Below, in pieces: positions 6,655 to 10,270 of a DNA stretch of 64,000 bases (the stretch's first letter is position 1; every line of letters begins with the position of its first letter). This DNA is from an uncultured bacterium (GTDB lineage: Bacteria > Krumholzibacteriota > Krumholzibacteriia > LZORAL124-64-63): positions 1-64,000 of the forward strand of contig CAIWHK010000006.1 in assembly GCA_903912525.1 (NCBI GenBank). Direction: 5' to 3'. The notes below the pieces were generated by a model that searched no databases, was not told where the DNA came from, and worked only from the letters and a program-made list of their open reading frames with translations. The position numbers and the translations under genes are program-made.

Positions 6655-6740
6655 GCGGATCGCGCGAATGGCAGGCGGCTTGCTCCCTGGAAACCGGAGA
6701 CAGGCAGCAACGGCTAGCCGCCCACCCGAAAGGTCATCAA

Positions 6741-8345
6741 ATGATGTTCTGCCGCCGATCGCCGGGCTCCCGGGCTCGCCTTGCCGTGCCCCTGTGCATG
6801 ACGGCGCTGGCGCTGTTCCTGCCGCCCCCGGGCAATTCCGGCCGTGCGCTTGCCGGCCAGGACCTGGTCGTCAACACATATACGGAGCTGGACCGCCTGC
6901 GCGACGAGAAGCTCACGCAGCTGCGCGACTATCTCGACCGCGTGCAGCGCCTGGCTGGCCAGGCCGCGACCGACCCGGTGTTGTGCGATTACTTCCGGAT
7001 CCGCAGCCGTTTCGCCGAGTTGCAGGCGCAGCAGGCGCCGCCGGCCGAGGCGCTGGCCGCGATCGCGACGCTGGACCTGTCCCTGCGCGAACACTACCTG
7101 GCGAACTACCTCGCCTTCTACGACATCCTGTTCGTCGCGCGCGACGGCAGCGTGTTCCACACGATCCGCGGTGAAGCGGATGCGGGCACGAATCTCTTCA
7201 GCACTTCGCAGGGCGAGACGGCGCTCGGCAAGCGACTGCGCGGCAGTCCCGACGCGTCGTTCATCGACTACGAGTACTACGAGGCCTCGGGTGAGCCGTC
7301 GGCCTTCTTCGTCGAACCGGTGAAGGTGGGTGGGCGGCCGGCCGGATGGCTCGTGCTGCAGTGCACCATCGACAAGCTCAACCGGATCTTCGCGCGCGGC
7401 GACTACCTCGGGGGAACGGGCGAGGTCTTCCTTGTCAATCGCGAGCGGCAGATGCTCACCGACTCGCGGTTCCGGGCCGACACCAGTGTGCTGAGGCAGC
7501 ACCTGTCCGAACAGAACATCAGCGCGAAGTTCGCAGAGCGACGCGGCCACAAGATCATCACCGACTACCGCGGCCAGCGCGCCCTGACGTCGTTCGAGGT
7601 GTTCCCGGTGCTGGATCGCGAATGGCTGCTGATCGCCAAGATCGACGAGGACGAGGTGGTGACGCGGGCCTGGCAGCGCACGGGCTTCGACGCCATGCTG
7701 GCCGAGGCCGCGCGCGCGACGCGCCCGCCCCGAATGGCCGAACCCCGCCTGCCGGCCGACCTCGTGCGCGTGGACATGGACGAGTTCCGCGGCGCCCGGC
7801 CCGGCGCCGGGCTCCTGACCTACGGCGTCAGCACCTGCACGGCCGTCGTCATCGGCAGGCCCGGGCACTTCGGCTACCTGGGCCACGCCAGCGTCTACGA
7901 CCGCTGCTACGGCGCCGGCGACATGGACCTCGTGGCGCAGATGCTGCAGCGCATCCGGCAGTTTGAGGTGTATCCCAGCGAGCTGCGCGAGCTCCGCGCC
8001 GTGGTCGTGGCGCCGCATGTGAACAGCGCGCGCGGCGTCGTCGAGCGGTTGCTCGACGCGGGGCTGTTCCTGTCCCAGATCACGTTCGTGGCCGACCCCG
8101 GCGCACGGCGAGCCGACGTCCTGCATGACCCGGAATCGGGCGCCACGCGCGTCCACTGGTTCGGGGCCGGCGACCGCCAGTGGTGGGTCGATGCGGCCGC
8201 AGTGCCCGACCTGGGCCTGCTCGCGCAGACCGCCCTCGACTACCCGGCCGCGGTCACACGCGCCGATACGCGCGACCAGGCTGTTCCCGACAGCACGGCC
8301 GCGACCGAGCCTGCCCCCGCCGACGCGGCCGGGACCTCGCCCTAG
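6741..8345 (+). CDS. Exported dCache-like sensor fused to a CheD-like glutamine deamidase domain
   Basis: 534 residues. Residues 1-38 look like a signal peptide (RR near the start, hydrophobic AVPLCMTALALFL, then ALAG). About 40-300 fits a double-Cache extracellular sensor fold: a long N-terminal helix, then sheets with YDILFVARDGSVFHTI and GTGEVFLVNRERQML. No transmembrane helix, HAMP or signalling domain follows. Instead residues ~345-480 resemble CheD, the receptor glutamine deamidase, with the triad positions kept: T360-YGVST-C366 and H382, spaced as Thr21/Cys27/His44 in Thermotoga CheD. CheD is normally cytoplasmic, so an exported fusion is unexpected. AAAGG lies upstream of tandem ATGs. 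The gene stands alone, divergent from the met operon. Confidence 0.7.
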   Translation: MMFCRRSPGSRARLAVPLCMTALALFLPPPGNSGRALAGQDLVVNTYTELDRLRDEKLTQLRDYLDRVQRLAGQAATDPVLCDYFRIRSRFAELQAQQAPPAEALAAIATLDLSLREHYLANYLAFYDILFVARDGSVFHTIRGEADAGTNLFSTSQGETALGKRLRGSPDASFIDYEYYEASGEPSAFFVEPVKVGGRPAGWLVLQCTIDKLNRIFARGDYLGGTGEVFLVNRERQMLTDSRFRADTSVLRQHLSEQNISAKFAERRGHKIITDYRGQRALTSFEVFPVLDREWLLIAKIDEDEVVTRAWQRTGFDAMLAEAARATRPPRMAEPRLPADLVRVDMDEFRGARPGAGLLTYGVSTCTAVVIGRPGHFGYLGHASVYDRCYGAGDMDLVAQMLQRIRQFEVYPSELRELRAVVVAPHVNSARGVVERLLDAGLFLSQITFVADPGARRADVLHDPESGATRVHWFGAGDRQWWVDAAAVPDLGLLAQTALDYPAAVTRADTRDQAVPDSTAATEPAPADAAGTSP

Positions 8346-8371
8346 GCCGCAGCCGATGCCGGCCCGCGCAG

Positions 8372-8402
8372 GGGCGCCGCTCCCGACGAGGCGGCGCCCT
8401 TC
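8372..8402 (+). terminator. Terminator hairpin after the dCache-CheD gene
   Basis: Perfect 9-bp stem GGGCGCCGC / GCGGCGCCC with a 10-nt loop, 27 nt past the stop codon. The downstream T content is poor (TTCGTGTG), so efficiency is uncertain. Confidence 0.6.
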
Positions 8403-8414
8403 GTGTGACCCGCC

Positions 8415-8444
8415 TTGGTGCCCGAGCCTCCCTGCCGCTATAAT
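8415..8444 (+). promoter_or_regulatory. Promoter of the pgpA-cinA-thpR operon
   Basis: TTGGTG (8415-8420), 18-nt spacer, perfect TATAAT (8439-8444), about 55 nt before the pgpA start. Confidence 0.65.
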
Positions 8445-8501
8445 GCCGCACGGCGTCGCTCGCGGCGCGGGCCCGTCCATCCACCAACCCGAGGAAGTTC
8501 C

Positions 8502-8981
8502 ATGCGCCGTTTCGCCCTCCACCTGGCCGGCACGTTCTTCGGCTCCGGCTACGCGCCCATCGCGCCCGCGACTGCCGGCAGCCTGCTCTTCACGCTGATG
8601 TGGTGGGGCGCCTGGACGGCGTGGGGGCCGATCGGGCTGCCGGTGCACCTGGCCCTGCTGGCGCTGGTCACGGCCATCGGCATCCCCGTGGCCGGCGCGC
8701 TGGAACGCCTGCACGGCGAGGACCCGAAACTTGTGGTGATCGACGAGGTGGCCGGCATGCTCGTCACCTTCCTGGGCGTGACCGGCGGCCCGCTGGTCTG
8801 GTTCGCCGGCTTCCTGTGGTTCCGCTTCTTCGACATCCTCAAGCCGCTCGGTGTGCGCAAGCTCGAGCAGCTGAACGGCGGCGGCGGCGTCGGCATCATG
8901 GCTGACGACCTCGGCGCCGGCGTGCTGGCCTGCGCCGCCACGCATCTCACGGCTCGGGTGCTGGCGGGGTGGGGGCTGTGA
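8502..8981 (+). CDS. pgpA: Phosphatidylglycerophosphatase A family protein
   Basis: 159 residues, the size of PgpA, an inner-membrane enzyme that dephosphorylates phosphatidylglycerol phosphate. The N-terminal SGYAPIAPATAGSL, the acidic DEVAGM motif and WFRFFDILKPLGVRKLE, followed by GGVGIMADDLGAG, are family hallmarks and supply the metal-binding acidic residues. Three to four hydrophobic segments are visible. GAGGAAG precedes the ATG. Its stop overlaps the GTG start of cinA. Confidence 0.92.
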   Translation: MRRFALHLAGTFFGSGYAPIAPATAGSLLFTLMWWGAWTAWGPIGLPVHLALLALVTAIGIPVAGALERLHGEDPKLVVIDEVAGMLVTFLGVTGGPLVWFAGFLWFRFFDILKPLGVRKLEQLNGGGGVGIMADDLGAGVLACAATHLTARVLAGWGL

Positions 8982-10270
8982 GCGACGACGTGGCGGGCTT
9001 CGGCGAGCTCAAGATCATAGCCGTCGGCGACGAGTTGCTCGAGGGGCGCACGGCCGACACCAACAGCGGGCGCATCCAGCGCGCGCTCGGCGGACACGCG
9101 CTGCGCTGCGGCCTGATCCAGGTGGTGCCCGACACTTTGGATGCCATCCGGCAGGCGCTCGACCGGACGGCGCCGGGCGACCTCGTGTTCATGACCGGCG
9201 GTCTCGGTTCGACGCCGGACGACCTGACGCGCGATGCGCTGGCAGCGTGGGCCGGCGTGCCGCTCGATGAAGACGCCGCCGTGCGTGCGCAGCTGGAGGA
9301 GCGCTGGCGCCGGCGCGGGATCAGCGTGCGCGCGGGCGTCGAAAGCCAGTGCCAGGTGCCGCGCGGACTGTCGCCGCTGACCAATCCCGTCGGCTCGGCG
9401 CCCGGGCTGGCCGGCCGCCTGTGCGGACGCATGTTCGTCCTGTTGCCGGGCGTGCCCCCCGAGTTGGAGGGCCTGTTGCCTCTCGTGCTCGACCGGCTGC
9501 ATCGTGAAGGCGCCCTGCCGACCGGACGCGCCACGCTCACCTGGCGCACGGCGCAGATCGCCGAGCTGCAGCTGGTGCGCCGCTGCGACGAGGCGCGCGC
9601 CGCGTACCCGTCGCTCGGCTGGTCGTGGTGGCTGTCGGACTGGGGCGTCGATGTGCGCGTGTCGGCGGCGCCCGGGGATGAACACCAGCTGGCGGATGTC
9701 GGCGCGCGGCTCGACGCCGAACTGGCGCATCTGGTCTACACGCGCGACGGGCGCGACCTGCCGACCGTCGTGAAGGACCTGGCCGTGGCCCGCGGCCGCA
9801 CCATCGCGGTCGCCGAATCGTGCACCGGCGGACTGGTGGGCGGGGCGCTCACCGGCGTGGCCGGTTCGTCGGCCTATTTCCGCGGCGGCATCCTGTCCTA
9901 TGCGAACGACGTGAAAGTCGCGCAGCTCGGTGTACCGGTGTCCGTGCTCGACGGCGACGGCGCCGTCAGCGAAGCCTGCGTGCGCGCGATGGCGGCCGGC
10001 TGCCGCGAGCGCCTGGGCGCGGACCTGGCCGTGGCCGTCAGCGGTATCAGCGGTCCGGACGGCGGCACCGACGACAAGCCCGTCGGCACGACATGGATCG
10101 GCGTGGCGACACCCGCGGGCGTGTTCGCCGGCTGTTACCGGTTCCCGGCCGACCGGACACGCAACCGGCTGCTTGCGGTCGCGGCGGCGGTCGATGCGCT
10201 CCGGCGCGTTCTCGAGGACGGGGATGACGTTTCGCCGTGGGCGCGGCGCGACACGTGGTGCACGCGCTGA
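8978..10270 (+). CDS. cinA: CinA: competence/damage-inducible protein with NMN amidohydrolase domain
   Basis: 430 residues, full-length CinA. The N-terminal MoCF-like domain has GDELLEGRTADTNS and MTGGLGSTPDDLTRDAL. The C-terminal PncC-type nicotinamide mononucleotide deamidase domain begins at AESCTGGLVGGALT and includes the SGISGPDGGTDDKPVGT signature. The family salvages NMN in the pyridine nucleotide cycle and often lies upstream of recA, as here. The GTG at 8978 forms a GTGA overlap with pgpA and is preferred to the in-frame GTG at 8969. Confidence 0.94.
   Translation: MSDDVAGFGELKIIAVGDELLEGRTADTNSGRIQRALGGHALRCGLIQVVPDTLDAIRQALDRTAPGDLVFMTGGLGSTPDDLTRDALAAWAGVPLDEDAAVRAQLEERWRRRGISVRAGVESQCQVPRGLSPLTNPVGSAPGLAGRLCGRMFVLLPGVPPELEGLLPLVLDRLHREGALPTGRATLTWRTAQIAELQLVRRCDEARAAYPSLGWSWWLSDWGVDVRVSAAPGDEHQLADVGARLDAELAHLVYTRDGRDLPTVVKDLAVARGRTIAVAESCTGGLVGGALTGVAGSSAYFRGGILSYANDVKVAQLGVPVSVLDGDGAVSEACVRAMAAGCRERLGADLAVAVSGISGPDGGTDDKPVGTTWIGVATPAGVFAGCYRFPADRTRNRLLAVAAAVDALRRVLEDGDDVSPWARRDTWCTR

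Follow-up and report, generated by a model that had tools for sequence, protein, structure and literature searches.

What would a CheD-like domain do outside the cytoplasmic membrane? The question is raised by a gene in a 64,000-nucleotide stretch of DNA (the window; positions 1 to 64,000 of contig CAIWHK010000006.1, assembly GCA_903912525.1) from an uncultured bacterium of the phylum Krumholzibacteriota. A first-pass annotation had read its product as a signal peptide, a double-Cache (dCache)-like ligand domain and a CheD-like domain joined in one chain. The covalent tuning of chemoreceptors described so far, by CheR, CheB and CheD, takes place in the cytoplasm. The relatives of this gene are often found in chemoreceptor operons, a hint that receptors may be open to modification or tuning from outside as well; if this is true, a separate extracytoplasmic sensor would be able to set or mature them. 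Our literature searches (on CheD together with Cache or dCache, with a periplasmic location or with fusions) brought up no account of a CheD–dCache fusion. New here are its recurrence across phyla, the confinement of the C-terminal domain to this fusion and the linkage to chemoreceptor operons.

The C-terminal domain is predicted to adopt the CheD fold

The C-terminal domain of the window protein was left unnamed by Pfam and NCBIfam scans, and PDB sequence searches with the whole protein and with a profile of the domain gave chance matches only. Because a fold search with the whole chain was dominated by dCache matches, a separate model of the C-terminal domain was made and used as the query. 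The AlphaFold model, based on 11 sequences, has a pLDDT of 90 and a pTM of 0.87. Its best PDB match in Foldseek is CheD of Thermotoga maritima (2f9z_C; E=2.0e-8; template-modelling scores 0.65/0.70), as the first-pass annotation had led us to expect. NTAN1, YfiH and CNF follow; these four make up the matches up to E=1e-3 and share one common fold. NTAN1 (6A0E) is the weaker match compared with CheD, and it differs from the fusion in lacking a sensor domain and in carrying an additional region at its C-terminus.

A comparison with the CheD family by profile, also proposed at the outset, gave no clear sequence match. The family model PF03975 matched neither the window protein nor the family members scanned. 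This model has 108 positions and starts after the catalytic Thr-Cys-His motif; because it begins past the catalytic His, Pfam scans cannot report whether CheD-like proteins retain the active site. The program hhalign placed the motif in register when the domain profile was compared with 20 true CheDs (P=0.0046), a score reached equally by 1 of 100 shuffled profiles. With P only ~0.005, descent from CheD is unproven by sequence alone, and the link to CheD is one of predicted fold and site, not of sequence. If the model is correct, the domain is an unnamed addition to the deamidase fold.

The presumed active site is conserved

Thr360, Cys366 and His382 lie where the first reading had placed them, in the arrangement Thr-x5-Cys with a following His that is typical of CheD (T. 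maritima 2F9Z; PF03975). The triads known from this fold are Thr21/Cys27/His44 in CheD and Ser69/Cys75/His92 in NTAN1 (PMC7022378). In the window protein the His follows the Cys by 16 residues, one fewer than in CheD. Cys366 and His382 are invariant in 17 aligned homologues and are among only eight residues of the domain that are invariant in these sequences. Residue 360 is Thr or Ser in all of them, which parallels the third triad member in CheD (Thr) and NTAN1 (Ser). An 18th homologue, from another Deferribacterota genome, keeps all three site residues, and the Cys and His are thus present in 18 of 18 homologues examined. Neither of the outcomes named beforehand as fatal, a C-terminal model that fails to superpose on CheD with the three residues clustered or homologues that lack the Cys and His, was encountered.

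Cys366 is not explained by a structural disulphide, since none of the remaining Cys residues in the domain is conserved. In the model, the Cys starts one strand and the His lies in the next; together with the register of the motif, this strand layout suggests that Thr360, Cys366 and His382 cluster in space. The invariance of the site suggests that catalysis has been retained.

One subfamily and one single copy stand apart. The subfamily (L044:6526-8031, L045:1-1119 and L091:9049-9708) is divergent: residue 360 is Ser or Thr, the motif reads GVGPC, and ~10 residues are inserted behind the His. In one Denitrovibrio sp. copy (contig PKTN01000010, L041:8952-8954), an in-frame TGA replaces the conserved Gly between the Thr and the Cys; this copy is either a broken gene or an assembly error, and the same genome holds a second, intact copy (L090).

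The fusion is an exported protein with a receptor-like sensor domain

The open reading frame at 6741-8345 is a working gene under purifying selection and no artefact. Protein identity within the genus is 79–81% for two of the three relatives. The ratio of non-synonymous to synonymous substitution rates (dN/dS) within the genus is ~0.12–0.18 for the CheD-like domain and 0.13–0.19 for the dCache part, with higher values in the signal segment, the linker and most comparisons of the tail.

For the sensor part, PF02743 (dCache_1) matches the window protein with E=2.8e-11 and 43.8 bits, 1.2 bits short of the curated cut-off of 45; it is matched by 9 of 10 family members, with a best E of 3.9e-15. 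In the fold search with the whole-chain model (pLDDT 79), the top matches were dCache domains from kinases and chemoreceptors. By sequence, the closest relatives of this dCache outside the family are successive ectodomains of methyl-accepting chemotaxis proteins (MCPs), ahead of any kinase. The window protein differs from these dCache_1 chemoreceptors in what follows the sensor: profile scans and hydropathy revealed no second transmembrane helix, HAMP or MCP signalling domain in the chain. Because its nearest outside relatives are chemoreceptor ectodomains, the dCache sequence suggests that the fusion originated by replacement of a receptor's membrane and signalling parts.

A hydrophobic N-terminal segment is present in every intact family member, as judged from hydropathy and homologue comparison, and no later transmembrane-like segment was read in any of them. 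Both the dCache assignment and the absence of a membrane-spanning or signalling part between the two domains, as claimed in the first-pass annotation, are borne out. A lipobox, LISC, occurs in one homologue (L039), and two others have lipoprotein-like N-terminal ends, TASC (L044) and TVGC (L110). Since the window protein has just one hydrophobic segment, at its N-terminus and with arginines before it, the remaining chain is expected to lie outside the cytoplasmic membrane, whether the segment is cleaved or not. Domains of the dCache type are extracytoplasmic. The cytoplasmic single-domain layout of CheD is absent from the family, all intact members of which combine an export segment with a fused dCache.

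The fusion recurs patchily and is linked to chemoreceptor genes

The C-terminal domain was found solely in fusion with dCache or in pieces truncated where a contig stops. A survey of genomes, another of the checks suggested early on, located the domain in 7 of the 80 genomes from the window's phylum, in 4 of 297 and 2 of 85 genomes sampled around deltaproteobacterial carriers, in 2 of 51 genomes of the phylum of the Denitrovibrio carrier and in one Phycisphaerae genome. The fusion recurs patchily across several phyla.

A co-directional MCP gene adjoins the fusion gene in 7 of the 14 loci with usable flanks, these seven loci representing six genomes; locus L106 is open on one side and stands outside this count. 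CheW is encoded in several of the MCP-adjacent loci and CheB in one, and two gene orders occur. The seven loci read as follows: CheW, MCP, fusion gene (L036 and L087); MCP, fusion gene and then a dCache MCP (L037); an MCP with dCache followed by the fusion gene (L044); CheW, fusion gene, MCP (L038 with its likely continuation L103); fusion gene, MCP, CheW, adjoining CheB (L088); and fusion gene, MCP (L089). A simple binomial calculation for 7 of 12 loci, in which kinship is ignored, gives a chance of ~1e-9 or less for such adjacency; the later loci bring the count to 7 of 14.

The neighbouring receptors are largely of one kind. In six of the seven MCP-adjacent loci they belong to a single subfamily whose periplasmic domain is helical and 4HB/HBM-like; in L044 the neighbour is a dCache MCP and not of the helical type. 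The helical subfamily is found in 5 of 7 carriers of the fusion versus 5 of 73 other genomes (Fisher p=2e-4), and in a second sample in 3 of 4 carriers versus 19 of 293 others (Fisher p=0.0014), kinship again being ignored in both tests. The helical repeats of the partner MCPs contain conserved glutamines, for example in FLxxQ repeats, which are candidate target sites only. The window's own genome has a CheW–MCP pair of the helical subfamily on contig C7 (L098:6698-9281, with the MCP at 7275-9281), unlinked to the fusion gene; this pair is the best candidate for the partner of the window protein. The chemoreceptor-operon context of the relatives, which the first-pass annotation lacked, makes receptors the likely target. 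A CheW gene and a long helical MCP gene also form a pair of the partner type on contig C6 of genome G110 (L104:5980-9399), where the fusion gene is absent.

A proposed extracytoplasmic partner of chemoreceptors

The gene, its export signal, the dCache domain, the CheD fold, the conservation of the site and the linkage to MCP and CheW genes are all supported by the results above. The account that we put forward, and to which we give an even chance, is that of an extracytoplasmic chemoreceptor partner, in which dCache senses a ligand and the CheD-fold domain acts on, or docks to, the periplasmic part of the receptor, most likely by amide hydrolysis. The fusion protein would be exported and, in some relatives, probably lipid-anchored. 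Its receptor-derived dCache would bind a small ligand beyond the cytoplasmic membrane, and the CheD-fold domain with its Cys366-His382-Thr360 site would dock on the periplasmic helices of an MCP, typically one of the 4HB/HBM-like subfamily. By hydrolysis of a side-chain amide on these helices, the docked domain would most likely convert Gln to Glu or Asn to Asp, and ligand binding would thereby set the receptor state from outside. Periplasmic binding proteins, which present ligands to chemoreceptors, likewise let a soluble binder signal to a membrane receptor; the fusion differs from them in that its binder is a dCache and not a solute-binding-protein fold, and in its second, enzyme-like domain.

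That a receptor is the target, that the reaction is deamidation and that the ligand controls it are inferences. Deamidation is taken as the default reaction of the fold, and the protein may plausibly work as an enzyme outside the cytoplasm. The receptor glutamines on which CheD is known to act lie in alpha-helices (PMC7022378). The fusion has its best fold match in CheD and shares with it the motif and, in seven loci, the chemoreceptor gene neighbourhood; its own activity is only predicted, and neither PF03975 nor, clearly, profile comparison recognizes it as a CheD. A more specific version, in which a periplasmic CheD relative senses a ligand and deamidates conserved Gln or Asn residues in the helical bundle of the receptor as an outside counterpart of the cytoplasmic modification system, strikes us as possible, though less likely than not.

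Several observations weigh against the proposed partnership. Likeness to CheD by sequence profile alone is marginal. Half of the 14 loci are not MCP-adjacent (those of the window's genus, L034, L039, L040, L041, L090 and L110), one of them, L090, having an MCP and a CheY/CheA-like cluster ~5 kb from the fusion gene. The helical MCP subfamily is missing from the carriers G029, G079, G082 and G084, and genome G110 has a helical MCP with CheW and no fusion gene. We know of no methylation cycle outside the cytoplasm, and for this reason a periplasmic amide edit would be one-way and would resemble a maturation step or a latch more closely than reversible adaptation. In Bacillus subtilis, moreover, CheD contributes more through binding than through deamidation (PMC3513319). 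The catalytic edit on the receptor is the weakest step of the mechanism.

The work on B. subtilis, where CheD acts mainly by binding receptors and CheC (PMC3513319), is in keeping with an explanation without catalysis: a co-receptor similar to periplasmic binding proteins, whose dCache binds the ligand, whose CheD fold only docks to MCP helices and whose Cys-His site is structural. This would account for the MCP gene linkage equally well, yet a pure docking surface should need no hydrolase site, and Cys366 and His382 are invariant, with Thr or Ser kept at position 360; we judge it unlikely, if a serious contender. It is less probable still that the protein is an exported Cys-His amidohydrolase, regulated by dCache, with a target other than a receptor (cell wall, peptide or small amide), and that the neighbouring MCP senses its product or the same ligand. 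The fold does include enzymes with other substrates, a cell-wall precursor in the case of YfiH (PDB title of 7w1g) and N-terminal Asn in that of NTAN1, and no MCP gene stands next door in the window and in six other loci; however, the best fold match is CheD and not YfiH or NTAN1, and the co-directional MCP/CheW linkage in seven loci and the co-occurrence with one MCP subfamily also speak against such an enzyme.

Characterised CheD proteins are established to work inside the cell, which invites the thought that an ordinary cytoplasmic CheD, or else a degenerate chemoreceptor, has been misread as exported. We consider this highly improbable. Against it stand the signal segment of all intact members, the lipobox of one homologue, the extracytoplasmic nature of dCache, the lack of a second transmembrane helix and the purifying selection on both domains, and a separate canonical CheD is encoded on contig C70 of the window's genome. 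The export segment, this selection and the absent signalling domain led us to reject both forms of the idea.

Gene layout and genomic surroundings

The features of the gene are collected in Table 1.

Table 1 Features of the fusion gene and its protein product in the window
Feature	Positions	Strand	Basis
Whole gene, exported dCache/CheD-like fusion, 534 amino acids + stop	6741..8345	+	Open reading frame, homologues, purifying selection
GAAAGG, likely ribosome-binding site, 7 bases 5' of ATG	6728..6733	+	Sequence
Signal segment, residues 1-39, possible cleavage after Ala-Leu-Ala	6741..6857	+	Hydropathy, homologue comparison
dCache_1 ligand-binding domain, residues 40-310 (Pfam match 63-298)	6858..7670	+	PF02743, fold search
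Variable linker, residues 311-338	7671..7754	+	Raised dN/dS, alignment
CheD-like domain, residues 339-492	7755..8216	+	Model and best PDB match CheD 2f9z_C
Thr360 codon, third member of presumed triad, Thr or Ser in family	7818..7820	+	
Cys366 codon, presumed nucleophile, invariant	7836..7838	+	
His382 codon, presumed general base, invariant	7884..7886	+	
C-terminal extension, residues 493-534	8217..8342	+	Alignment; low pLDDT from residue 512 on

No MCP gene was found on the window's contig. The neighbours of the fusion gene in the window are a gene on the opposite strand for a pyridoxal-phosphate enzyme of Cys/Met metabolism and, downstream, pgpA followed by cinA. In the alignment, the Ala/Pro-rich tail that ends the C-terminal extension is seen only in the window's genus.
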